From Toxonevra muliebris (Eukaryota; Arthropoda; Insecta; Diptera; Pallopteridae), in assembly GCA_963691655.1 (NCBI GenBank), contig OY829331.1, positions 292,501 through 356,500 on the forward strand: a stretch of DNA of 64,000 nt. The letters are read 5' to 3'. Positions 25,844 through 56,651 of this stretch are shown one piece after another. Position 1 is the stretch's first letter, and the number at the start of each line of letters is the position of its first letter. The translations under genes were made by a program, and so were the position numbers. The notes under the pieces were generated by a model. That model saw only the letters and a program-made list of their open reading frames with translations. It was not told the DNA's origin and searched no databases.

Positions 25844-25860
25844 AATAATGTTATTTTATT

Positions 25861-26026
25861 GGCCGTCAGCCGTTAGCCAATTCACTGGGAACAACATGTA
25901 ACACCTTGGTGTACGTGCCGTAACTGTTTGGACTGATGGTAGTGCGACTATGACCTCCTCGTGGTGGCGGCTGGTAACGGTGTATGATATGGTCATGTCT
26001 CTATCATGCACCGGCTAACATAGTCG
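25861..26026 (+). ncRNA. HDV-like self-cleaving ribozyme at the 5' end of LOA no. 1
   Basis: Folded by hand. P1: GGCCGUC (25861-25867) with GGCGGCU (25966-25972), 7 pairs including two G-U. P2: CGACUAUG (25945-25952) with CAUAGUCG (26019-26026), 8 Watson-Crick pairs. P3: ACC/GGU around loop UCCUCGU (25956-25962). GGUAAC follows the P1 strand. P4: a 12-bp hairpin 25978-25989 with 26002-26013. CUAA at 26015-26018 is the expected position of the catalytic cytosine. This is the nested double pseudoknot of HDV ribozymes. Such ribozymes are known at the 5' ends of R2 and LOA-group LINEs, where they free the RNA 5' end. Cleavage is predicted just before 25861, one base from the target-site copy. Confidence 0.9.
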
Positions 26027-26419
26027 GGCGGAGAGATGGTCCACTCTCTTAAATCAAAACCCCTAATCCAAGGTGGAACAGCATATGCCGAGGGATGCGT
26101 GGCTAAGAGGGTGCTTAGTCGTTAATTTGCGAACTCTGGATACCAGGCGACCTCCAGTTTCAATCAGCCTTCCCATGATACAGCGGGCTATGTCATGGGT
26201 GATTTTCCTTTCCCGCCCACTCGTGGGGAAAAAAAATATGTTATATAACCGAAAGGAAAAAAACAAGGATGTGGAGGATGCACCTAGTGCATCGACAGTC
26301 TGTAGTGCTGACGGGCATACAGTTGTCCCTATTTCCATGTCTACCGGCTTGGTAGACATGCCTTCGGGCGCTTTGGCTTCTGATGGGTCTCGGATAGGCC
26401 ACCAACACCTATCCCTGGT

Positions 26420-28234
26420 GTGCTTTCGTCCACACTTATCGGCGCCAGGGAGGGGGTCGTATCCGAGGAAGACTCCTCGGATATCGACTCCCTCTGTGGC
26501 ACGGTAGTGCCGGACAATTTTAGTGTGTGCTCGGAGCAATCTAGGCTCACAGCTATTGGCGCAGAAGTTAACCAGATGACGCTAAACGCGGAGTCTGGTT
26601 TTGTCAAACTTACTTCTGCAGAGAAAAGGAGGTTCCGTTGGGCTATGGACTGTGGTCTCTCCAGAGATAGGTCTCTGGAAATAGCCAAGAATCCCCTTCT
26701 CTCCCTTCCGGCTAAGCCGAAAAAAATCAAGCGTGTGCGCTCGTTGGAGCAATCACAGAGTCTCCCCGACTCCAAAAAGCCCAAGAACTTCCACACGGAA
26801 CCAGCGAAAGCCACTTACAGCCAAGTGGTGAGTAGCGTTAGACTGGGCTTTGTCTCGAGCGACATGAATAATCGTCCTCTTACAGCTGAGCAAGTAGCTC
26901 TTGTGCAGGAGGCGATTATTGACGTGTCAATCGAGCTAGCTGGTAAAGACGTGCTCAAGCCACAATATGAGAACTGTCTGCCCAGAACGGGTTGGTTAGT
27001 TCTCACGTGCGTCGACCAGCCCTCGGCTGACTGGGTGCGTAGGCACTTCAACAAAATCAAAGACCATTCGGCCCTTGATATAGACCTTGTGGAGGAGGGT
27101 AACTTTCCCAGGACTCATTTGATCCGGGGTTACTTTCCTCACAGCCTGTCGCTGACAAGTGAGAAGGTAGTGAGCACACTTGGTGCACTTAACCCCTTCT
27201 CAACTGAGCAGTGGAAGGCTGTTGAACGACGCACGCAAGGTCCGCTTCTCCATCTAATTATGGTTATTGATGATGCGTCAATGACTAAATTGCTGGAGCT
27301 CAAGGGCAGGGTCTGCTACAGATTTGGGTTCATCAAATTGATGCTCAAACCTGTGGCCGCTGCTACCAAAAACGCTGGACCTGTATCTGAGGAGCAGGTC
27401 CCCTCTAACACTACCTCTACCAGTACATTAGACAGCGGGGAAAAAGCGATGTTGTTGGACATGCTCCCGGCTTCTGCCGATTTGGTCAGTAGCAGGACCG
27501 GCAACATGTCAACAGTGTCTCTAGACGCTGTAGAGCCTTCCACAAGTCGCGCCGCTGGGCAGACTAATTTAAGGACTCTTCGGCGGCTGAGGTCCACTGG
27601 TGATATTGCGACCGGTCCTGTTACTTGGGCCAGTATCGTCGGGGCGTCGGGTGCGCCAGGTAGCGGTTTTGTGGCGGAGAGTGATGTTGAGAGGCCCTCT
27701 ACTAGTCGTGCCGCCGGGCTGACAACCAGAGGGCCCTCGCAGTATCAGTCATCTGCCTCAGAGACCGCTTCCAGGTCGAAACATAAACCCGCTGCCTCCG
27801 TTTCAGTGAGGGCTATGAGCACCGTGGGGTCTTCTGCTGGTCGGGCTGTTGAGCCTACCAGTGGAAGGGCAGCACGGCTCTCATTGCCACACGTAGAGGC
27901 AGTTACTGTGTCTTATGACACAACAATCACCGGAGGGAACGTAGAGGCAATGGCTGCTGCAGGATCTTCTACCAGTCGTGCTGCAGGGTCGACTAGTAGT
28001 GGGGCCTCTCAGCAAACACTGTCTTCTGCGACTTCAGCAGTACTGCCAGGTGGAACTCCGCTGGCGGTTCTGCCTCGCAATTCGCATTCTTCCGCTCGGG
28101 GAGGAATGCCACCCAACTCCCTTGGCAGGGCTGCAGCTCATGGCAGAGGAGGAAGATGTGCTAGAGGCAGAGGGTCTCGACGAGCTTTGGCTGGGAAGCT
28201 CGTCCAACGGTCTCTAGAACAGCAGAGACGATGA
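26420..28234 (+). CDS. LOA LINE no. 1 ORF1 protein (604 aa)
   Basis: The frame is open from the ATG at 26420 to the TGA at 28232-28234, which overlaps the ORF2 start. The N-terminus is acidic. Residues about 130-310 form a domain like those in other LOA ORF1 proteins (DUF4780-type): GWLVLTCVDQPSADWVRRHF, then HLIRGYFPHSLSL and FGFIKLMLKPVA. The C-terminal third is Ser/Thr/Ala-rich with four copies of a (P/S)STSRAAG-like motif, and the end is Arg/Gly-rich (GRGGRCARGRGSRRALA), suited to RNA binding. No CCHC knuckle was seen. The assumed role is an RNA chaperone in the LINE particle. Confidence 0.85.
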   Translation: MLSSTLIGAREGVVSEEDSSDIDSLCGTVVPDNFSVCSEQSRLTAIGAEVNQMTLNAESGFVKLTSAEKRRFRWAMDCGLSRDRSLEIAKNPLLSLPAKPKKIKRVRSLEQSQSLPDSKKPKNFHTEPAKATYSQVVSSVRLGFVSSDMNNRPLTAEQVALVQEAIIDVSIELAGKDVLKPQYENCLPRTGWLVLTCVDQPSADWVRRHFNKIKDHSALDIDLVEEGNFPRTHLIRGYFPHSLSLTSEKVVSTLGALNPFSTEQWKAVERRTQGPLLHLIMVIDDASMTKLLELKGRVCYRFGFIKLMLKPVAAATKNAGPVSEEQVPSNTTSTSTLDSGEKAMLLDMLPASADLVSSRTGNMSTVSLDAVEPSTSRAAGQTNLRTLRRLRSTGDIATGPVTWASIVGASGAPGSGFVAESDVERPSTSRAAGLTTRGPSQYQSSASETASRSKHKPAASVSVRAMSTVGSSAGRAVEPTSGRAARLSLPHVEAVTVSYDTTITGGNVEAMAAAGSSTSRAAGSTSSGASQQTLSSATSAVLPGGTPLAVLPRNSHSSARGGMPPNSLGRAAAHGRGGRCARGRGSRRALAGKLVQRSLEQQRR

Positions 28235-30468
28235 GTGCCATCAAGGTACTCCAGGCGAACCTGCACCATGCCATAGGGGCATCGGCCACAGTATGCAGGC
28301 TTTTCGCTGAAAACAAATTCACCCTTGCGCTAATACAGGAGCCCTGGGTAAGCTGTGGCCAGGTCCGCGGACTCAATACGAATCATAGTAAGTTGCTTTA
28401 CTTTCGTGGAGATGTTGTGCCAAGAGCGGCCATACTAATTGAAAAAAGTTTTAATTATCTCCCTCTTACTAATTTCATTTCCAGAGATCTCGTAGCCATA
28501 CTGGTGGAGGTCCCCACTGCGAACGGAGTACAGGAGGTCGTGCTGGCGTCTGCATACTTTGCTGGGGACTTGCAACAAATCCCACCAATCGAGGTCCAGG
28601 ATTTAATTAGTGACTGTCGGCAGTCCAATCGTCAATTTGTTGTTGGCTGTGATGCTAATGCCCATCATACCATCTGGGGTAGTAGCAATATCAACGAACG
28701 AGGTGAGTGTCTTCTAAATTACTTAGTATCTAATAGTGTAGATATTGTAAATAGGGGATGTAAGCCTACTTTCATTACTGCAGCCAGGGAAGAGGTGCTG
28801 GACCTCACCCTAGCCAGCAGGATATTGTCCGATTGTATTGTGAATTGGAGAGTCTCAGATGAAGCGTCCCTGTCTGATCATCAACACATAGTTTTTGACA
28901 TTCCAGGACGTACTGAACTCCTTGCTAATGTAATTAATCTTAGAAGGACTAATTGGTGCGCCGTAGAAGGCCTATCAATCAATCCCAACAAAGCAGTTCT
29001 TGTTCCCTTTACTAAGAGATACAAACTGGACCTCGGTCCCATTTCCATACAAGACACTGTTATTGTGTACTCTGATGAGGTCAAATATTTAGGCATCACG
29101 CTTGACAAACGACTAAACTGGAACAATCACTTACACACTGTCCTCTTAAAAGCCACTAGGGCTTTCTGGGCCTGCAAAAGACTCTTTGGTAAAACATGGG
29201 GTCTTACTCCTAAGATGATCTTTTGGCTCTACACCATGATAGTTAGACCTGTCACAGCCTATGCGGCTCTAGTGTGGTGGCCCAAAGTCATGCAGGGCTC
29301 GGCCATCACCAAACTTAACAAGCTCCAAAGGCTTGCTTGCGTCTCCATAACTGGAGCTATGCACACCTGTCCAACTCCTGCCATTGAAGCGTTGAGTAGC
29401 CTGGTGCCATTACACATTTTCATCAAGAAAACAGCCGCAAATACTGCTTTGCGGCTGCGTATATCGTCAAGCTTAATAAAAGGCAACTATGGTCACCTGA
29501 GCATTCTTGACGAAATTCCTAACACTCCAATATGTACTGTATCGGATTATATGGTTAGGGATCTGTGTTTCGGTAGGAAATTCAACATCATTCTTCCTTC
29601 CAGGTCCGAATGGGATGGCCAGTGTCCCGATTTCGGTCCCTCTTCTCTCAATTGGTATACAGACGGCTCGAAAATGGACTGCGGTTCTGGTGCCGGAGTT
29701 GCTGGACCCAATACTAGAATCTCAATCCCTCTGCGTATTTGGCCCAGTGTCTTTCAAGCCGAAATATACGCAATTGAGACCTGCGCTAATATAAACCTGT
29801 ATAAAGGTCTTAAAGGCGCAAATATTGTAATTTTCTCAGATAGCCAGGCGGCTCTCTTAGCACTCTCTTCATGGAGTTTTTCATCTAAACTGGTGAAAGA
29901 GTGTTTTGATAGTCTCCAGCGCTTGTCTACCCGTAACAAAGTTACGCTTTGTTGGGTACCCGGCCACCGTGACATTGCTGGTAATGAAGCCGCCGATGAA
30001 CTGGCTAGGCAAGGTTCATCTACCAAGCACTTCGGCCCCGATCCGTTTTGCGGAATCGGCTGGGCCTCTACGAAATCTATCGTTGAGGAGTGGTCTAAGG
30101 CAAAATGGCTAGAGTATTGGAACTCTATCCCGGGTTTAAGACAGGCAAAAGTTCTCACCATTCCGCTTGCCCAAAATCAGCCCATCTCTTATTCCAAACC
30201 TGACCTTAGGCTATTGGTGGGCTACATGTCTGGACACCATGGGCTCAGATATCACCTAAGCAAAATAGGTCTGTCCAATGAGACAGAATGTCGTCTATGT
30301 ATGGAAGATGACGAGACGACACTTCACATTCTGTGTGAGTGTCCGGCCTTGGCTCGCCTCAGAGGAAGAATCTTTGATTATTCGTTTTTGACGGCTGATC
30401 ACATGAAATCTTCTTCAACGAAAGATGTCTTGACTTTGATTAGGTCAGCCGAACGTCTTTTGTCATAA
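28231..30468 (+). CDS. LOA LINE no. 1 ORF2, endonuclease + RNase H with RT missing (745 aa)
   Basis: The ATG at 28231 overlaps the ORF1 stop (ATGA), which suggests coupled re-initiation. Residues 1-235 are an AP endonuclease (QANLHH, QEPWV, GCDANAHHTIWG, LDLTLAS, SDHQH). At about 28960 the sequence jumps from RRTNW directly to the RT thumb (GLSINPNKAVLVPFTKRYK, VKYLGITLDKRLNW), losing fingers and palm including the catalytic YADD. RNase H follows (WYTDGSK, SDSQAAL, WVPGHRDIAGNEAADELA), then a C-terminal cysteine cluster (CRLCMEDDETTLHILCEC). The frame remains open through the junction. Comparison with LOA no. 2 puts the loss near 420 codons. It cannot reverse transcribe by itself. Confidence 0.9.
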   Translation: MSAIKVLQANLHHAIGASATVCRLFAENKFTLALIQEPWVSCGQVRGLNTNHSKLLYFRGDVVPRAAILIEKSFNYLPLTNFISRDLVAILVEVPTANGVQEVVLASAYFAGDLQQIPPIEVQDLISDCRQSNRQFVVGCDANAHHTIWGSSNINERGECLLNYLVSNSVDIVNRGCKPTFITAAREEVLDLTLASRILSDCIVNWRVSDEASLSDHQHIVFDIPGRTELLANVINLRRTNWCAVEGLSINPNKAVLVPFTKRYKLDLGPISIQDTVIVYSDEVKYLGITLDKRLNWNNHLHTVLLKATRAFWACKRLFGKTWGLTPKMIFWLYTMIVRPVTAYAALVWWPKVMQGSAITKLNKLQRLACVSITGAMHTCPTPAIEALSSLVPLHIFIKKTAANTALRLRISSSLIKGNYGHLSILDEIPNTPICTVSDYMVRDLCFGRKFNIILPSRSEWDGQCPDFGPSSLNWYTDGSKMDCGSGAGVAGPNTRISIPLRIWPSVFQAEIYAIETCANINLYKGLKGANIVIFSDSQAALLALSSWSFSSKLVKECFDSLQRLSTRNKVTLCWVPGHRDIAGNEAADELARQGSSTKHFGPDPFCGIGWASTKSIVEEWSKAKWLEYWNSIPGLRQAKVLTIPLAQNQPISYSKPDLRLLVGYMSGHHGLRYHLSKIGLSNETECRLCMEDDETTLHILCECPALARLRGRIFDYSFLTADHMKSSSTKDVLTLIRSAERLLS

Positions 30469-30539
30469 AATGGGGAATGGCACAAAAGATCTTTTAGGTC
30501 GCAGTGCCTGCCTGGTTGGGCTCCTCTAATACTAATAAT
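30469..30539 (+). other. 3' tail of LOA no. 1
   Basis: A short 3' UTR containing AAGATCTTTTAGGTCGCAGT and ending in TAATACTAATAATAATA. The tail is matched by SINE copies at 39247-39340 and 43690-43780. Confidence 0.8.
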
Positions 30540-30555
30540 AATAATGTTATTTTAT

Positions 30556-30997: not shown

Positions 30998-31208
30998 TTA
31001 AAACCAACCACCACCTCCCAGCTTTGAGCTAAGACCACCAATTCCTTTTCCAAGTAAATTTCCAACACGTCCAGCCACAACATTTGTTACGGCTGCCGCT
31101 TGTGCGGCGGCCATTTTTGGTTTTGGCAAATTGCGTGATGTACTGCCAACACCCTCTTCACTCATGCCGTCTTCTTCGCCAGTTTCCCCTTTTATGTCAT
31201 CAAGATGC
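30998..31208 (-). CDS. Cadps: Cadps terminal coding exon (CAPS C-terminus)
   Basis: The minus strand after the acceptor TTCCAATTGCAG (AG at 31209-31210) encodes 70 codons: HLDDIKGETGEEDGMSEEGV, a Pro/Lys segment, an Ala-rich segment, then VVAGRVGNLLGKGIGGLSSK and GGGGWF before TAA at 30998-31000. The exon starts with one base that completes the codon split at the end of the 39429-39568 exon, so the phases agree. CAPS is a cytosolic protein that primes dense-core vesicles for Ca2+-triggered exocytosis. The exon has no damage. Identification of this tail rests mainly on phase and position after a clear CAPS exon. Confidence 0.8.
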
Positions 31209-31249
31209 CTGCAATTGGAAATTGAATTTTATTTTACTTTTATATAACC

Positions 31250-31480: not shown

Positions 31481-31691
31481 TTCAGTTTTAGTGGTAGTTT
31501 ATGAAAATGTTGTTTCCGATCGCTAAATAACGGTAATTTGTTTATTTATATGTACTTGTTTATAATAATTAGCAAGTAAATATTGTTCTGGAACATGAAA
31601 AAATCTGAAAAAAATTGCTAATACTGTTTTAAAAAATATGTGTAAATTTCAAAGTGTGTCCATTCTTTTGTTTAGAAGTCATGATTTTTTT

Positions 31692-31890
31692 GGCTGTCGA
31701 GCCGTCAGTCACTCAAGGGGACTAACATACATCTCAATGTGTGCCGTAATTGAGTGGTCTTATGGTAGAGTGGTCTATCACCTCCTCGTGGTGAGAGCTG
31801 GTAACGGTTGCATGTCAGCCAACTGGTGTAAAATATTATCTTGTAACAGGGTACATCAGATGTCTGATATGCAACTGGCTAAGATAGATC
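31692..31890 (+). ncRNA. HDV-like self-cleaving ribozyme at the 5' end of LOA no. 2
   Basis: P1: GGCUGUC (31692-31698) with GAGAGCU (31793-31799), six of seven pairs. P2: GGUCUAUC (31772-31779) with GAUAGAUC (31883-31890), eight pairs with one G-U. P3: ACC/GGU around UCCUCGU (31783-31789). GGUAAC at 31800-31805. P4: 13-bp hairpin 31806-31818 with 31864-31876. CUAA at 31879-31882. P1 and P2 differ in sequence from LOA no. 1 yet keep pairing. The predicted cleavage site is exactly the junction with the 11-bp target copy. The single P1 mismatch may reduce activity. Confidence 0.85.
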
Positions 31891-32160
31891 AAGCAAACCC
31901 TCTCGATCCAGATATGTTAGGGTTCCATTTGTGGTGCGTCTCAGATATGTTTGATTTTTGATATCATTCATAATTAGACTTTCTGGCGTGCACTACATGT
32001 GGGGTCACTGCATATCTGGTCAATCAAACCACCCCTGGATACTTTCCCAAAAGGGCTCGTACCAACCCTCGCATGGCCTCTCTGCTTGCATAGATAACCA
32101 TGGGACCATTAAGGTGAGTACACATTACGGACCGAGATAGCGGTTACGAGGACCCATCAG

Positions 32161-33590
32161 TCATGAATACGCCAAATAAAAACCCCACAACCAAAGGCCA
32201 ACCCACATAGGAAGCCCTCACGCTTGGCAAGGCAATCGCTAGCCAATCGCTCTCCACCCTCCACTTCTGGTGCTCATCCCGCCAGTTCCTCGAGCACTCT
32301 CGTCACCACGGCAACTGTGTCAGGAGCGAGAGTTACTCCTCTGCCAGTAATACTGTCTGGTAATGGCAAGGTTCCGACAGCTAAGTCGACCTCTTCCTCC
32401 ACCATCACAGGTGCTGGCGTGTCTCGCACACAACCACTTGCTTCGAGCATTTCGACAACTGTGCCAGGTGCTCCTCAGTCCGTTCGCCTCACTGGTGTTG
32501 TACAGGCATCGGCAACTAAGCCGGCCCCTATCCCCACCAGTGCAGGCCCCAGCACTGCTCCGGTCTCGGACGCACGCTCGCATGGTAATGCGTCAACTCG
32601 GGCGTACAGAACCAAAAGGTCCGCCTTCAGGATTCTGGGTAGATTGTTGTCCCTTGACCCCTCTCCGCTATCGGAGAGAGACCAGGCTCAACCAAACGCT
32701 GGTGCTCGATCACCACCCCCTCTCACCCAGAGTGCTAGTCAGAAACGGTAAAGGTCGACTGATCTAGCCATTCAGCCCGTCTGTCATGACAATAAACGGC
32801 TGGCAGCCCCAAAGCCGAAACTTATTCGGCCCTTTAATGAGTTTGCAAAAGATGGTCTCGTTTGGGCCATTATCGATTCCAACAACAGCGATGGTACCAT
32901 ATCTCTAGATAACTGGAGGTTGGTACAAGCTGCACTTCGCAACATCTACAAGGATGTTGTAGCGGCCAATCCAGGCCCGCCGCGATGCCGGTTGGCATCA
33001 GGGGCATGTTAAGTTGGTGGCTTGTTCAGACCAACTCTCTGCGGATCTGTACAAGTCAGCCATCGAAATACTGGGAGAGGTTTGGCCAGGTGTCAAGCTT
33101 TCTGCCATTCCTAGGGAACTTATTCCCAACCGTCCGCTCTCTAATGCTTGGATTCCGGCTGAGCCCTTTTCGCCCGAAGACATCTTAGAGCTGATTAAAC
33201 CTGGAGCTCATGACTGGAGAGTTGCCAAGGTTAGCGAGCCCAAGGGTCACATCTGAGAAGCGCTCATTATTTTAAATGAGGAGTCGCTGGCCCCCCTCAA
33301 TGCCTGTAAGGGGGAGATCAATTATGGCTTTGATGCGATCTCCCTCAGGGTGTACAGGTGTGGTAAGCTGGACACTGGACAGGTATCTTATGCGGAGCCG
33401 TCGGCAAAAGCCGAGGCCCTAATGGTTACCATGTCCCAGCCAGACACTCAGTCCGATGACGGCAGTGTCATGTCCTCCTCCGAATTAGTTAGTGACTTCA
33501 TCGGAAAAATGGAGCTTGTCACCGCATTCGTCGAAAAACCTCTTTTTCCGATGAGGATGACTCCGACGTCACCATTGTCGCGAACCCCAA
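32161..33590 (+). pseudogene. LOA no. 2 ORF1, broken
   Basis: Open pieces are 32224-32751 (Ser/Thr/Pro-rich, starting MARQSLANRSPPSTSG), then after a stop a DUF4780-like domain (IRPFNEFAKDGLVWAIIDSN, then SNAWIPAEPFSPEDILELI, to 33256), then the C-terminus up to about 33590. The order of low-complexity part and domain is reversed relative to LOA no. 1, so the two belong to different LOA lineages. Several stops prevent translation. Confidence 0.65.
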
Positions 33591-36092
33591 TGATTGTGAG
33601 GATTGTTCAAATTAACCTTCACCACTGTATTACTGCCTCGGCAGCCCTGCTCCTCCGCCTGACTAAAAAAGGAGAGGAGCTCATACTTGTCCAAGAACCA
33701 TGGGTCGTTAATGACCGGGTTTGCGGACTCAATATTAATGGATACCGCACAGTGTATGTGGAGGGTCAAGGTAAACAGCATTAATGCTCTTTTACTCTCC
33801 AGGTTCAGCGATAAAGACAACTTGGCCATGGTCATTGAGATCGACGCCATAGCCACCTGGATTATCTCCAGTTACATGGCACATGACCACGACATATCAC
33901 CGCCGCACGATACTTTAACGCTTCTGGTTGCAGAGGCTAACCGTAAACGGACCCCGGTTATCATCGGTGCCGACGCCAATGCCCATCACGAGATGTGGGG
34001 CAGCACGGACACAAATGAACGAAGTGAGTCTCTCTTTGATTTTATCCTTACTAATGACTTAGTTATTGCTAATAGGGCGAGCGAGCCAACCTTTAATACT
34101 TCAAATAGAAGGGAGGTTCTCGATCTCACTCTAATAAGTGAATACTCGTCACACCTACTGAAAGACTGGAGTGTCTCGCAAGAGTGCTCTTTTTCTGACC
34201 ATAATTATATTAACTTCACCATTGATAAACTAGATCCTACAGACTCTGCAGGTTCTACTAGTCTCCTCAATAGGAAGCGTACTGATTGGGCAAAGTTCCA
34301 AGCCATTATTGAGCCTGGTATACAGCCTGCTCCACCCACTATTAATAACCACTGCGATATTGATCGAGAGGTAAACTCCATTACAGCACTTTTTAACACT
34401 GCTGCCAAATCGGCTTGCAATTCTTCCAAACCTAGAGGTAAAACCAAACCTTTACGGTGGACCTCGGAGATTGCAGAGCTACGAAAGGTATAAAGAAGGC
34501 TCTTTAATAGAGCCAAGGCTTTCAATGACTGGTTTCCCTTTAAATCTAAGCAAAGGGAACTTAAGTACGCTATAAGAAAAGCCAAAAGGGCGTCTTGGAG
34601 GAATTTCTGTAGTAGCATAAAAAGCTCCACGACTAGCCGACTTCGAAAACTCCTTAATACGACCCTTAGGGCTCTCGACTGTATCCAGAAATCCGATGGT
34701 CACTGGACTGATTCTGGGATCGAGACCTTAGAGGTCCTCCTGAATACTCATTTTCCGGGGAGTGAAACCTTCGTTGATCACAGTCCTCCTGTGACTGATC
34801 ATTCTTTATGTAGCCCCTTCCCTTTCCAACTGACCGACACTCATCTAAAGTGGGCCATGTATATGTAACTTCCTGGCAAATTTATAATGCTTGCCTAAAA
34901 TTCTCGTACATTCCAAAAAACTGGACAGAAGCTCGTGTAGTCTTCATACCCAAAGCAGGGAAGGCGTCCCATACCAACCCAAAGGACTTCAGACCGATCA
35001 GTCTGTCCTCCTTTCTCTTAAAAACATTAGAAATGGTTCTTGATTTTCATATCAGGAACTCTATCAATCCCACTCTTTTATCCAAATCACAGCATGCCTA
35101 TACCAAAGGGAAGTCTGTGGAAACAGCGCTAAATGTACTCATTGAGGAAAGAGTATACGCTTGCAGTATTTCTCGATATCGAGGGGGCTTTCAACAATGT
35201 CTGCCCGACGCTGTCGGTAATGCCTTAATAAATCTTAATCTTGATGTTAATCTGGTTAGATTTATAGGACAACTTCTTAAAACACGTATCATCAGCTCCT
35301 CTATTGGAAATGATAAAGTTAAAAAGGTTGTAAAAAGGGGCACACCACAAGGAGGTGTATTATCACCTCTTATTTGGAATCTGGCGGTGAACACACTGCT
35401 AAACAGATTAGACCAAACCGGCTGCAAAATAATAGCTTATGCAGATGACATTGCTATTGCAGTGTCTGGCAAATACGTTTCTACTCTTTCAGAACGGCTA
35501 AATCACACACTTAGCATTCTGTCACACTGGTGCCGTGAATTCGGTCTTAATGTAAATCCTGCCAAAATAGAGGTTATGCTTTTCACTAAAAAGTACAAAA
35601 TAAAATACCAACTTTTGCCCTACTCAAAATTAATGGTACCTCCCTTTGCGTTAGCAAACGCGTCTTACGTCTATTAAATTAGCCATTAAGCAAAACTACC
35701 TTGAGAAAGCAAAAAGATCCTGGGTAGTGGAGCATACCTGTGGTGTTACCAGGCTAACATGGACCACTATGGACAATAGACGGACTAGACAGCTACTCAA
35801 CCTTAGCAGAAACTCCATCAGCGTTACGATTTCGGTGCTCACGGTACACTGCATAATGGGGAGACATGCTGCAAGACTAGGACTGCCTTTCAATGACTTC
35901 TATCAGAGCTGCGGCTCTGAGGAAGAAGAAGAAACAGTCCTCCATTTCATGTGCGAATGCCCATCCCTGACCAGGAGGAGACTAAAACTCCTGGGCTCAC
36001 CTTTCTTCACTAGTCTGTCCGAGCTATTATCCATAAATATTAAGGACATAGCCAGATTCATTATGGAATCCTCATGGTTCTCCACTCCGTAA
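33591..36092 (+). pseudogene. LOA no. 2 ORF2: endonuclease and RT present, RNase H lost
   Basis: It begins MIVRIVQINLHHC near 33591. The endonuclease follows in two frames (VQEPWV, then GADANAHHEMWGSTDTNE, LDLTLISE, SDHNYI), with a frameshift near 33775. RT spans about 34500-35640 (DFRPISLSSFLLKTLEM, GTPQGGVLSPLIWN, AYADDIAIA near 35440, EFGLNVNPAKIEVMLF) with several breaks. At about 35663 it jumps straight to the region after RNase H (KRSWVVEHTCGVTRLTW) and the terminal cysteine cluster (CGSEEEEETVLHFMCEC). The loss is the mirror image of that in LOA no. 1. Confidence 0.85.
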
Positions 36093-36629
36093 ATGCGGGA
36101 GTCGCGCCGCACTGTGGTATCACAATGAGCCAAATTATGTGCTTAAGTATGCTTTCAAGTAGAAGGCTGCCACTCCAACCTAACCTATGATTTTTTTAAA
36201 TCAGCACCACACAACGTTTTGTCGCACTTGGAGCAAACGCGCGTCGTTCGCAAAACAAAATTTACAAAAACATTTTAGATTATGCAAATTTCACTATTTA
36301 TTATTATAAATAAATCGATTATCGTCAAATACTCTCCCGTTAATTCTGAGAAAAATATTTCTGGATGTAGGGTGTATTTGCAACCTCCACTGAGAAAAGA
36401 AAATCCCTTAGGAAAAATATTTATCACCAAATTATGTATCATAACTTCAATAATACTAAGCGTAAAGCAATAAAATTAGGTTTGATACATTGAAAATTAA
36501 TAGACCTGCAACTTTTTTGGGTTGAAAGCAATTACTACTCAAAATTCAAAAATAAATTATTTCTTCGACTTTTTTTTTTAGAAAATTTAAGTTTTTGCAA
36601 AATGTTGTGTAATAATGTGTTTAATTTTG

Positions 36630-43689: not shown

Positions 43690-43891
43690 TTAATAGTTAT
43701 TATTATTTGAAGGAAGGACGACTCGAAAGTCAGGCACTGCGACCTATAAGATCTATTGTACCAAAGCCCCAAGAAAGAAAGAAAGGAAGAGGGAAAGAAA
43801 GATAGATAAGAAACATACCCAAGCCGAGAATCGAACTCGGGTCTCCAGAAACGAGAGTCTGGCACTCTGCCACTAGACCACAGTGGCGATG
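43690..43891 (-). mobile_element. tRNA-Glu-derived SINE with LOA-like 3' tail
   Basis: The minus strand starts CGCCACTGTGGTCTAGTGGC (A-box TGGTCTAGTGG), has the B-box GAGTTCGATTC near 43830, and has an anticodon-loop-like CTCTCGT (Glu CUC pattern). After a TC-rich spacer the tail AATAGATCTTATAGGTCGCA GTGCCTG matches the LOA no. 1 3' end and finishes in AAATAATAATAA. Internal boxes imply RNA polymerase III transcription. Confidence 0.75.
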
Positions 43892-47612: not shown

Positions 47613-48454
47613 GTGGGTCAAATCGACCTACTCATTAATGGTGGTCTTGGTGGTTCTCAGGTTGATGCTATTTACACAGACTTTTCCAAAGCCTTCGATA
47701 AAGTAAGTCACAAAATTTTACTTCATAAGCTTCAGTTACTTGGATTTCATTCAGTTTTCCTTCAATGGATTAAATCATACCTTATGAATCGTATATGCTA
47801 TGTAGTCATAGAAGATGTCCATTCTGTATCTTTTCAAGCTTCATCTGGTGTCCCTCAAGGAAATATATTGGGACCCTTATTTTTCATTTTGTTCATAAAT
47901 GACATTGGTTCATGTTTCGATTTTTCTAAGTATCTACTTTATGCAGACGATTTAAAGATTTTTTCAGAGGTGCGCGACATATCTGATATGATTTCGCCTA
48001 CTCTCTTTTAGCTTTCGTTAAACGCAATATCAGCGATTTTTCCGATCCCTATACAAAAAAATTATTATATAATTCTTTTGTAAGATCTAAATTAGAATAC
48101 GCGGCAATTATTTGGAATCCTTTCTATGAAATCCATTCACAACGCCTGGAAAAAGTTCAAAAGAGATTTTTGAGGTATGCTCTTTCCTCTTTAAGATTCG
48201 AAGAACCAATTCCATCTTATTATTCCCGATGCCTGCTTATTAGCTTAAACTCTTTAGTAAATCGGAGAATGATACAATCGTTAATGTTTGTGTACGATGT
48301 CATTTGTGGTATCATAGACTCTTATCACCTGTTAGAACTGATTTGTTTCAACATACCTGGAAGAAGTTTTTGGAATTTCAATACTTTCTATATAAAATTA
48401 TCTAATTATGCCTGTGACAGTCTAATAACTAGAACCTTAAGAGTATGTATATAA
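47613..48454 (+). pseudogene. Jockey/CR1-like LINE RT fragment with internal deletion
   Basis: The plus strand encodes the RT palm: AIYTDFSKAFDKVSHKILL, SSGVPQGNILGPLFFILF and LLYADDLKIF (catalytic YADD near 47940). At about 47995 it jumps to the C-terminal region (AFVKRNISDFSDPYTKK, RSKLEYAAIIWNPFYE, RRMIQSLMFVYDVICG), ending at 48454. The thumb region is deleted and the 5' part is absent. Confidence 0.85.
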
Positions 48455-48654: not shown

Positions 48655-50129
48655 CTGAGGAACCATTTGGAGCCATCAGTGAAAATACGCTTACGCTTAT
48701 AGGCTCCATGTTTTGCCTAAAATACCCTTACATTGACAAAAAGCTGCCAGCGCCTTGGATACCTTTAGCTCAACATGAAAACGCAATTTAAGTTTGGTAT
48801 TTACAATGACTGTGGTCGCTGTAGCCTAGTGGTTAGTGTGTTGGACTGCTACGCAGAGGTGCCCCGGTTCATATCTCGGCACGCTCAAAAAAAATCAAAA
48901 ATAGAAATAAAAATTTTTTTACATGGCACCACCTCTTGGCTGGCAATGGCAAACCTCCAAGAGGAGGTTTGCCGTTCGGATTCGGCATAAAACTGTAGGT
49001 CCCTTCCATTCGTGTATAAATATAACTCCCACAACATGAATGGATGCGAAAAGCTCGGCCTTGGCCCCCATGGGCTGTTGTGCCATAATAGTAGTAGTAG
49101 TAGTAGTATTTACAATGACTCCTAGATATTTTACTTCTTGGGACGCCACAAGTCACAGATTGGCCACAAACAGCTTGAACCATCATACGTCTATGTGATA
49201 GCATTGCACATACCGTCAAAAGTCGCGTTGTGAAATGCTCCCTCAATATCAACAAAAATACCAATAGTGTATTCTTTCATGTTGAGGGCCCGCTCAATCC
49301 GACCTACCAGATTTTGCAGGGCCGTCTCACAAGATTTTCCACATTGGTAAGCATGCTGAAATGAAAAGAGAAGATGTAACAATAACGACTCACTACGGAT
49401 GCGGTGTTCAACACAGTGCTCAAGACATTTGAGTAAGAAGGACATCATACTAATTGGTCAAAAGCTTTTGGGATTAGTATAGTTGTCCTTTCCAATTTTT
49501 GGAATCAAAACAACTTTTACCAACCTCCATTGTTGAGGTATGTGAGCAAGAGCCAAACTGGAGATAAAGATCCTCTTCAAAACCGGTACCAATTGCACCA
49601 TACCCTCTATCAGAGCAACTGGCAGTATACCATCCGGACCCGGCGATTTGAAACTGTCAAAGAAAGCTATAGCAAACCTAATCGCGTTTTCATTCGCCAC
49701 TGTCCTGGCAACCCACCAGTTGCGCTGCGAAACTGTCGAATTAACGCTCTCCACTTCCGGAAAAGTGGGATGTTGAACAACAGAGACCTGATTGCCCGGA
49801 AAGTGAGATTCAAGCATTAAGCTAAACATCTCACTTTTTGATTCCGTGAAAGTGCCATCAGATTTTTTGAGTGAACACAGTCGGTTCGCTTGACTCTTTT
49901 TGAGGATTTTCGCCAACCTAGCTGTTTCAGACATAGTTTCAATACCGCTGCAGAAATTTCTAAAGGAAACTCTTTTCGAAACTCGAATTAGTTTTTTATA
50001 CTCCTTCTGCTTTTGACGATATAGGGTCCAGTGATAATGAAGATTAGTCCTGCGAGCCCTGTTGATAAGTTTTCTCGACTCAACCCGCAAAACTTGCAGC
50101 TCCTTGCTCCACCACGGAACAGGAATCAT
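48655..50129 (-). pseudogene. LINE ORF2 (RT and start of RNase H), internally deleted, SINE nested inside
   Basis: Read leftward: pre-RT linker and RT start 50129-49458 (PWWSKELQVLRVESRKL, SPGPDGILPVALIEG, IGKDNYTNPKSF), RT 49448-49191 (FSFQHAYQCGKSCETAL, GIFVDIEGAFHNATF). At about 49140 it jumps from GVP to EVKYLGVIVN of the thumb, is split by the SINE 48812-49106, and resumes with TKLKLRFHVELKVSKALAAF. A second jump near 48700 leads to IFTDGSK of RNase H. At least two internal deletions; the missing parts include the YADD box. Confidence 0.8.
48812..49106 (+). mobile_element. Full-length tRNA-derived SINE with 14-bp duplication
   Basis: The target copies TATTTACAATGACT at 48798-48811 and 49107-49120 are identical. 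Head: A-box TAGCCTAGTGGTTAG and B-box GGTTCATATCTC. Body: GGCAATGGCAAACCTCC... CGGATTCGGCATAAAACTGT. Tail: CCATGGGCTGTTGTGCCATA then (TAG)n. It interrupts a LINE on the other strand. It would be transcribed by RNA polymerase III and moved by an unknown LINE whose tail ends in (TAG)n. Confidence 0.9.
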
Positions 50130-55095: not shown

Positions 55096-55150
55096 ATATA
55101 TTAAATTTTACGTTGCGTTTTTCTCTGTATCATATCAGTGCAATACTTAC

Positions 55151-55460
55151 CAAATCAATACCATCTATAGTAGTTAATTTAAAGCTTTGATTTTTAGCAT
55201 CTAATATCACATTAACCATAGCACACATTTCCGAAGGTATTATATAATCTGTTGAAATGAAGGCAATATTTTTCTTAAGCCACGACTGAAATGATGAATC
55301 TGTACGCTGAATGCATTGTTCAATCATTTCGGCAGCCATCATTTTTAAACGTTGCTCCAAATGTTGACGAAATTCTGCATCCGGCCAATGGAGGTCACGT
55401 ATAAATGATTGTAAGGCATCTAACTTCCAGAAAAGATCCTCAGATGTAGCACAACCATTT
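55151..55460 (-). CDS. Cadps: Cadps internal exon (start of MUN/MHD region)
   Basis: The donor GTAAGT is at 55145-55150 and the best acceptor GGGTGATAG ends at 55461. It encodes [60 protein letters not shown] and MVNVILDAKNQSFKLT, ending DGIDL in phase 0, which joins YKFH of the next exon. Vertebrate CAPS reads [20 protein letters not shown] at this place. The frame stays open to 55564, so an acceptor up to about 90 bp further upstream cannot be excluded. Confidence 0.9.
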
Positions 55461-56651
55461 CTATCACCCAAAAGACGTGGCCAAACATTAACGACAAAAT
55501 CACATAAAAAAAAAGTTTTGTTTTGACGCAAATTTACACGAAAAATACAAAACAAACAATACAAAATTTAAAAATTTACTATTGAATAATAATTTTATTA
55601 CAACAAATACAAACAAAATTATAACATATGAAATATATAAGTAATTAAGTTAGACTAGCGAGCAAAATTAGCTAGTGATATGCATAGTTTTTATTTTTTG
55701 TGTGTTACTGTGTGCATTAAAAACTACAGAAAACTTTGTTCTGTAAGCGCTATATGAAACACAAACATATTGAACACATGTCTTAAAAATACTATCTTAA
55801 TATTAAGCAATTAAAAAAATTAAAATCATGCTCAATAATTTGATTTTTAAGGGCGGATTTCAGGTGATCAATTTAAATCGAATTTAAGTTAATTGTAAAT
55901 TAAAAATTAAATACGACTTAATTCTATGCGATATTCTATATCGCTGCAGACTTTGGCAGCTTTGCCATTTTTGCACGAAATGGCTTTTGTGCGTATTCCT
56001 TTCAGTCTCGTCGCCAATTGTTGCATCGTTATTGATTGATAATAAAATATTATTTTTACATATCTGTGGTCAAAAATAGTAATCGCTTAAGTCTGAAAAT
56101 CTCATCTCGAGTATGCACGGTTTGAAGTTAATGTGATTGGTTTCTATTCTACGTAAGAGAACACGTTTCTTTTTTATAACTTTTGTTTTAAAAAACTTAG
56201 AATTTCAGGCATTTTACGTATTTATAACTCCGAGAAAATAAGCCGTTTTGTTTCTTTCTGTTATTTCCGATTGTAAGTAATACAAATAAGTTAATTTATG
56301 AAATGTTTAAATAAAAAATTTATTAAGCGCCTGTGCGAAATGTGACTAAATTTTAGCAATTGGCTAAATATCTAGAAATGCTGATAATATAGTCAATAAT
56401 GTATTTCAAATTTTTGGTAAATTATATCTCTGAATTTGGCTAAAATTTACTATTTTTGGAGCACGGTAAATCTAATTAGTTGCTACCTAAACATGTATAT
56501 GTATTAAAAGAAATACGAAGAAGATGCAAACAAAATTTGTTACTGTGAACGAAGATTTTTACTGTAGTTATTGCTCACATTCTTTTCACATTCTCTAAAT
56601 GGCATATACAAAAACTATTATTAGCAAATAATGCAATGTTTCCATGCAATT
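55461..56651 (-). other. Cadps upstream intron or flank, AT-rich
   Basis: No further Cadps exon or other gene was recognised. Confidence 0.5.

Follow-up and report, generated by a model that had tools for sequence, protein, structure and literature searches.

An HDV-like double pseudoknot heading a LINE of Toxonevra muliebris and its predicted role at the element's 5' end

The locus and its fold

The window, a stretch of 64,000 nucleotides, carries two LINEs on the forward strand. E1, a defective copy (25861..30538, +), contains remnants of ORF1 (26420..28234, +), with a DUF4780 domain, and of ORF2 (28231..30468, +), with endonuclease and RNase H domains and a zf-RVT match below the Pfam cutoff. 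E2, a decayed copy of a second family (31692..36186, +), lies 1.2 kb downstream. Each element opens with a predicted HDV-like ribozyme, located at 25861..26026 (+) in E1 and at 31692..31890 (+) in E2, the latter with one G-G mismatch in P1. Two further LINE fragments are found at 47613-48011 (+), with an RVT_1 domain, and at 49458-50129 (-), with 38% identity to the E1-family ORF2; a window search with the covariance model R1, described below, finds no ribozyme with either. A MUN-domain exon (Caps-like) is located at 55130-55564 (-). The same strand has, at about 31000-31220 (-), an open stretch closed by a stop codon that resembles a last exon. E1 and E2 would be antisense to this MUN-domain gene, with E2 possibly in an intron. 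At Rfam gathering scores, the whole window contains only one match, a tRNA-like one at 43816-43887 (-) with 33.1 bits, which is not reported by ARAGORN with the bacterial code.

The ribozyme of E1 lies on the forward strand throughout and shows the series P1, J1/2, P2, P3, P1, P4, J4/2, and P2, an arrangement that matches the HDV double pseudoknot. The 5' strand of P1, GGCCGUC (25861..25867), follows directly on the predicted cleavage site at 25860/25861, and its 3' strand, GGCGGCU, occupies 25966..25972; G25861 would pair with U25972 as G-U. J1/2 (25868..25944) has a length of 77 nucleotides and contains a predicted arm, P1.2, whose outer 8 bp join 25869-25876 with 25933-25940. P2 is built from the strands CGACUAUG (25945..25952) and CAUAGUCG (26019..26026). 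P3 (25953..25965) consists of ACC/GGU (25953-25955/25963-25965) and the loop L3 with the letters UCCUCGU. The segment GGUAAC (25973..25978) provides G25973 and G25974, which would form P1.1 with C25958 and C25957, a register that we take over from HDV. The P4 hairpin (25978..26013) is comprised of 12 bp (25978-25989/26002-26013), and J4/2, CUAA (26015..26018), contains C26015, the equivalent of the catalytic C.

The first-pass annotation had listed a P1 of 7 bp, a P2 of 8 Watson-Crick pairs, P3, UCCUCGU, GGUAAC, P4, and CUAA, and a base-by-base check finds all of them in place. P1 has 7 pairs, including two G-U, P2 has 8 pairs that are all Watson-Crick, and P4 has 12 pairs with one G-U; every pair is present, nested in the double-pseudoknot order of P1, P2, P3, and P4. 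As a rule, HDV-like ribozymes combine P1.1 with a G-U pair where cleavage occurs, and the E1 sequence has the letters for both, with two C in L3, GG after P1, and the G-U. The presence of all parts of an HDV-like double pseudoknot at the head of E1 is confirmed. The base-paired arm P1.2 within J1/2 was absent from the first-pass annotation. Folded alone, J1/2 of E1 forms an arm of -24.2 kcal/mol (z of -1.87, with 8 of 200 shuffles as good), and J1/2 of E2 forms one of -23.2 kcal/mol (z of -2.89, with 1 of 200 shuffles as good). E1 begins with the near-tandem 7-mer GTCAGCC GTTAGCC (25865-25878), which is common to the 5' strands of P1 and P1.2. Two copies, L066 and L067, have lost one 7-mer unit, a loss that would break either P1 or P1.2.

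Covariance models, paired changes, and conserved letters

A search with an HDV covariance model had been proposed as a check in the first-pass annotation, and its outcome is divided. The best Rfam match of E1, obtained on a 601-base stretch, is drz-agam-1 at 25931-26027 (+) with an E value of 0.0063, and its 25.8 bits fall short of the gathering score of 37. On the same stretch, HDV-F-prausnitzii gives 18.8 bits (E of 0.49, gathering score of 44). E2 shows no drz-agam-1 match at E values up to 10 and only HDV-F-prausnitzii at an E value of 8.1. Among L042, L059, L060, and L065, drz-agam-1 matches L065 only, with 26.6 bits. Genome-wide, RF01787 (drz-agam-1) gives one match at E values up to 1, an E1-family copy at the L023 locus with 28.3 bits and an E value of 0.275; this match, itself below the cutoff, carries little weight, since the scoring covered 56 of 18,289 candidates and similar matches below the cutoff are obtained in 7 of 14 control genomes. 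RF00094 has no match in the genome among the 86 of 852 candidates scored, with 2 of 14 control genomes giving matches below the cutoff. Other Rfam families at the locus were rejected, as their matches are weak and below gathering only. With all HDV-type matches below gathering or absent, the general models appear to see this ribozyme family weakly or not at all. No curated Rfam HDV-type model places E1 above its gathering score, which is read here as a limit of the models, the gathering score being a detection threshold and no property of the fold. Rfam models at their thresholds can thus miss ribozymes like those of E1 and E2.

The low Rfam scores would also be expected if a LINE 5' untranslated region resembled HDV by chance. 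This reading is extremely improbable and was rejected on the strength of shuffles, of the reversed-pattern count, and of the recognition of E2 by a model built from E1 relatives. When up to 3 mismatches are allowed, the window has two occurrences of the core pattern, compared to none in 100 shuffles; exact occurrences in the 491-Mb genome number 205 (112 + 93), compared to 0 for the reversed pattern. Twenty of the 205 sites, picked mainly for differing P1 strands, were fetched. In thirteen, a J4/2-like CNRA precedes a strand with 7 or 8 of 8 P2 pairs, and six of the twenty have a P1 strand with 7/7 pairs at an E2-like distance. Seven of the twenty (L079, L080, L081, L082, L085, L086, and L088) are without J4/2 and a P2 partner, which indicates that the 205 are to be counted as core motifs and not as working ribozymes.

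The model R1 was built from 11 E1-family sequences with zero E2 sequence. In the window search, it finds E2 with 47.5 bits and an E value of 1.5e-11, and apart from E1 and E2, it matches only the opposite strand of the P4 hairpin (E of 0.0027). Over the window and 57 fetched loci, R1 gives 59 matches at E values up to 1e-6, with a single match at each locus and two within the window; the 58 matched sources include its own 11 rows. This detection across families argues against chance, as do the paired changes that set the E2-family copy L042 apart from E1. Across the 30 pair positions of P1 to P4, 10 differ by two-sided and 5 by one-sided changes, with 0 broken. P1 has 4 positions that are the same, 1 two-sided change, and 2 one-sided changes, P2 has 4, 3, and 1, and P3 has 3, 0, and 0. 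For P4, where 12 of the 14 pairs of L042 were compared, the numbers are 4, 6, and 2. The 8 positions of P1.2 show 6 that are the same, 0 two-sided and 2 one-sided changes, and 0 broken. E1 and the E2 family keep their pairing through compensatory changes. Within the 11 rows of the E1 family alone, 98.3% of cells pair, compared to 94.7% in shuffles, and neither this value nor the covariation score of 0.188 is reached by any of 500 shuffles. Three pairs are changed on both sides, and 119 of 500 shuffles have at least as many; for the 12 further pair types, this holds for 411 of 500.

The conservation of single letters was followed in 59 sequences, namely, the 2 window copies and 57 loci comprising 20 long E1-family copies, 18 E2-family 5' ends, and the 19 remaining E1-family 5' ends. 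A letter pattern parsed 54 of them; the others (L054, L061, L064, L068, and L069) are R1 positive. The catalytic position holds a C in 54/54 parsed copies, with J4/2 reading CUAA in 53 and CUGA in 1. L3 reads UCCUCGU in 50, GGUAAC is found in 51, and GG after P1 is found in all 54. Full pairing is present in 51 copies for P2, 53 for P3, and 35 for P1; a complete P1 is missing in 19, including 4 in which the 5' strand is unparsed. The 3' end of P1 is a U in 54/54, and position 1 is a G in 35/54. Among the 35 copies with a complete P1, 28 start with G and 7 start with A, which makes the first pair A-U instead of G-U. The complete structure, the invariant catalytic C of the parsed copies, and the compensatory changes between E1 and the E2 family support the earlier reading of the locus as an HDV-like ribozyme.

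Copies, families, and element edges

The E1 5' end has at least 40 matches in the genome, itself included (40 of 252 candidates scored), 20 of which begin at base 1 and 30 within bases 1 to 4. For the E2 5' end, at least 41 rows were obtained (40 of 535 candidates scored), 29 beginning at base 1 and all 41 within bases 1 to 4. Contig C5, with 20.8 Mb of the 491 Mb, holds 9 of the 40 E1-family rows and 11 of the 41 E2-family rows (two from one place), compared to an expected number of about 1.7; the binomial tails are 4e-5 for E1 and 7e-7 for E2, calculated on rows that are the best-scored ones. C5 is perhaps a sex or dot chromosome rich in transposable elements. A second 90-base match of the E2 5' end at C5:3202723-3202812 is found upstream of the copy at C5:3203048, at a distance of 325 bases, and is a possible tandem or 5'-jump product.

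Compared to most fetched copies, E1 is without 46 bp of ORF1 and about 1,366 bp of ORF2, including most of the reverse transcriptase (RT), a loss absent from the first-pass annotation, and no Pfam RT match is found in E1 itself. At the corresponding place, 19 of the 20 long copies have an extra stretch of about 1.34 to 1.37 kb, 18 of them breaking exactly at the break point of E1; the match of the remaining copy, L027, stops at E1 base 2730. A nonautonomous family defined by the RT deletion was rejected, since 19/20 long copies keep this stretch. Translation of 11 of the 20 long copies shows both the 681-codon ORF1 and the 1,224-codon ORF2 stretches to be open in 7; the defective E1 thus has nearly identical counterparts with open frames. 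The full-length copy L036 contains, according to Pfam, DUF4780 in ORF1 and the endonuclease, RVT_1, and RNase H in ORF2, with zf-RVT below the cutoff. Among 15 aligned copies, L031, L032, L036, and L037 show 100% identity in the letters that align, with gaps disregarded, and their different target duplications indicate that the E1 family has moved recently. The E1 copy, without most of its RT, would depend for its movement on protein supplied by intact relatives.

The losses in E1 and the P1 mismatch in E2 would also be expected if the ribozyme had once been active and were now a relic in the E1 copy and its relatives. This is very unlikely, given that the E1 ribozyme retains every pair and that identical copies at different sites point to recent movement of the family with the ribozyme in place. 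The window copy of E2 has G-G in P1 and C-U in P1.2, where L042 has G-C and C-G, and the 17 other parsed E2-family copies carry GACAGCU, which would pair at the P1 mismatch of the window copy.

The two families are distant from each other. The E1-family ORF2 and the E2 protein share 35% identity over 356, 40% over 251, 37% over 75, and 27% over 91 residues. At the DNA level, E1 and E2 are alignable only at bases 1 to 121 (74% identity) and in one 162-base ORF2 stretch, which makes the ribozyme region the one noncoding part seen to be conserved. A third group, E3, consists of L078, L094, and L095, with a P1 of GGUCGUC/GACGGCU (7/7 pairs) and 7/8 pairs in P2. The E3 ribozyme is 85 to 86% identical to L042 of the E2 family, compared to 68% to E1, which places E3 close to E2; E3 presumably heads a LINE as well. 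An ORF2 relative from Bactrocera tryoni shows 41% identity and ranks 62nd among the 120 matches listed, of which it is the one that bears the name of an animal. In viral_contigs, from which this genome's own records may be missing, a 26-base pattern was not found, and the ORF2 search returned 3 stretches, none of which was confirmed.

The 5' ends of the elements were read from their target site duplications. E1 is flanked by the 16-bp duplication AATAATGTTATTTTAT, with the 5' copy at 25844..25859 (+), 17 bp counting T25843, and the 3' copy at 30540..30555 (+). T25860 stands as one extra base between the duplication and G25861, which bears out the earlier statement that the first paired base is one base from the end of the duplication. 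The E2 duplication, ATGATTTTTTT (31681..31691 and 36187..36197, both +), abuts G31692 with no extra base. Comparison of the 5' flank with the 3' flank in E1, E2, and 20 E1-family copies shows a duplication of at least 8 bp ending at G1 in 14 of the 22 elements; in L022, L034, and L036, the first G could also belong to the duplication. One extra base is found in E1, L039, and L040 (3/22), with A as the first element base in L039 and L040. L024 is ambiguous, having a duplication of only 6 bp that fits either G1 or 7 bases upstream, and no usable target duplication is present in 4/22, namely, L027 (no 3' end found), L029, L035, and L038. As proposed in the first-pass annotation, the insertion end agrees with the predicted processing site, in that the first base of P1 is the clear starting point of 14/22 elements. 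The 3' flank of L030 and both flanks of L039 are 95 to 96% identical to the interior of E2 (35666-35886 and 35719-36023), from which both copies look to have been inserted in E2-family elements.

The edge is seen equally in a base-by-base comparison of 28 of the 40 E1-family rows (without L026 and 11 decayed or altered ones), 18 of the 19 E2-family rows (without L054), and the 3 E3 rows. G occupies element base 1 in 20/28, 12/18, and 3/3 rows, respectively. The fourth base is common to all rows within each set, and the base just before the element reaches no majority (the commonest is found in 11/28 E1-family and 7/18 E2-family rows), which places the edge at G1 or at most three bases farther in.

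Precise 5' ends are likewise expected from a +1 transcription start, and an internal promoter starting at G1 could set the end of the element, with the fold conserved for protein binding or translation initiation and noncleaving. A region with promoter activity at such a place has a precedent in the Pr77 region of L1Tc, described in PMC8256844 as promoter and ribozyme both. A promoter alone is nevertheless improbable: the parsed copies keep the active-site letters of the HDV type (catalytic C in 54/54, UCCUCGU in 50, and GGUAAC in 51) and end the 3' strand of P1 with U in 54/54, and the predicted cut falls on the first base of the element. The same L1Tc precedent (PMC8256844) speaks for a coincidence of the two functions, in which the first bases would act as promoter in the DNA and as ribozyme in read-through RNA. 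Such an overlap is compatible with self-cleavage as the main explanation and is given a lesser, though appreciable, chance.

Proposed mechanism and relation to known ribozymes

The preferred explanation, self-cleavage, sees positions 25861-26026 as the 5' end of a LINE with a predicted HDV-like ribozyme that very probably cuts before G25861 and is likely to free the element RNA from read-through transcripts. The predicted cut coincides with the start of most copies with readable ends, which indicates that the element likely trims its own RNA from longer host transcripts. Here, read-through RNA would be cleaved at 25860/25861, just before G25861, with C26015 presumably acting as the general acid by analogy to HDV and the P1.2 arm pinching P1 and P2 together. 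Cleavage would yield a 5'-OH RNA, which may then be used for target-primed insertion. Target-primed reverse transcription would run to the cut end, usually leaving 0 or 1 extra base, and new copies would carry the 5' end made by the ribozyme cut. A pinch by P1.2 of this kind was measured for drz-Agam-2-1, according to PMC4908430.

How non-LTR retrotransposons without a known promoter obtain a full-length RNA is an open question. E1 and E2 represent two distant families in one genome that mostly begin at the predicted cut site, and their numerous natural junctions and naturally occurring paired variants can be used to ask if ribozyme cleavage fixes the 5' end. A wider proposal is put forward tentatively, with somewhat more doubt than confidence: a distinct HDV-like branch below Rfam thresholds, marked by a long P1.2 pinch arm, may set the 5' end of two distant LINE families and of an E2-near group, with the ribozyme as the sole noncoding part visibly kept and with LINEs that rely on cotranscription and self-processing instead of a promoter of their own.

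A placement of E1 in the LOA clade fits the domain order of endonuclease, RT, and RNase H, and the full-length copy L036 has the ORF1 and the ORF2 with these three domains that characterize LOA; the same order also occurs in other LINE clades such as I. The literature search found nothing on the LOA clade together with RNase H, and, among the matches listed, PMC3774820 is the only paper that bears on ribozymes of the LOA group. PMC3630058 gives a list of LOA elements from a blowfly, and the word ribozyme is absent from it.

R2, R4, Dong, Baggins, and L1Tc are established cases of LINEs with an HDV-like ribozyme at the 5' end (PMC3774820). The predicted ribozymes of E1 and E2 are a well-supported new case among them. 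The HDV genomic and antigenomic ribozymes share with E1 the nested double pseudoknot and the characteristic HDV letters, namely, L3, GG after P1, and the catalytic C. They differ in that the HDV model RF00094 is without a match in this genome (86/852 candidates scored) and in the 77-nucleotide J1/2 of E1. The R2 ribozymes are reported to have an HDV-like fold, a conserved catalytic C, a J1/2 that can be very long, and a role in 5' processing of the cotranscript (PMC3774820). Insect R2 ribozymes thus resemble E1 in the fold and the catalytic C. In contrast, R2 resides in 28S rDNA and frequently cleaves at an upstream position inside 28S, whereas the flanks of E1 and E2 are unrelated and the elements mostly start at G1.

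The mosquito ribozymes stand close to E1 in two respects. drz-Agam-1 is its best Rfam match, yet under the gathering score, and drz-Agam-2-1 of Anopheles gambiae has a structured P1.2 in J1/2 (PMC4908430). The P1.2 arm in J1/2 is shared by drz-Agam-2 and E1, with a P2 of 12 bp in the former compared to 8 bp in E1. Cleavage at the 5' end of the element is described for Baggins, R4, Dong, and L1Tc in PMC3774820. E1 and Baggins have in common an HDV-like ribozyme at the LINE 5' end with a cut at the first base, which is predicted in the case of E1. The ribozyme of Baggins, a Drosophila LINE, was reportedly described by Ruminski et al. in 2011 in JBC. Baggins belongs to LOA and would thus be of the same clade as E1 if E1 is LOA.
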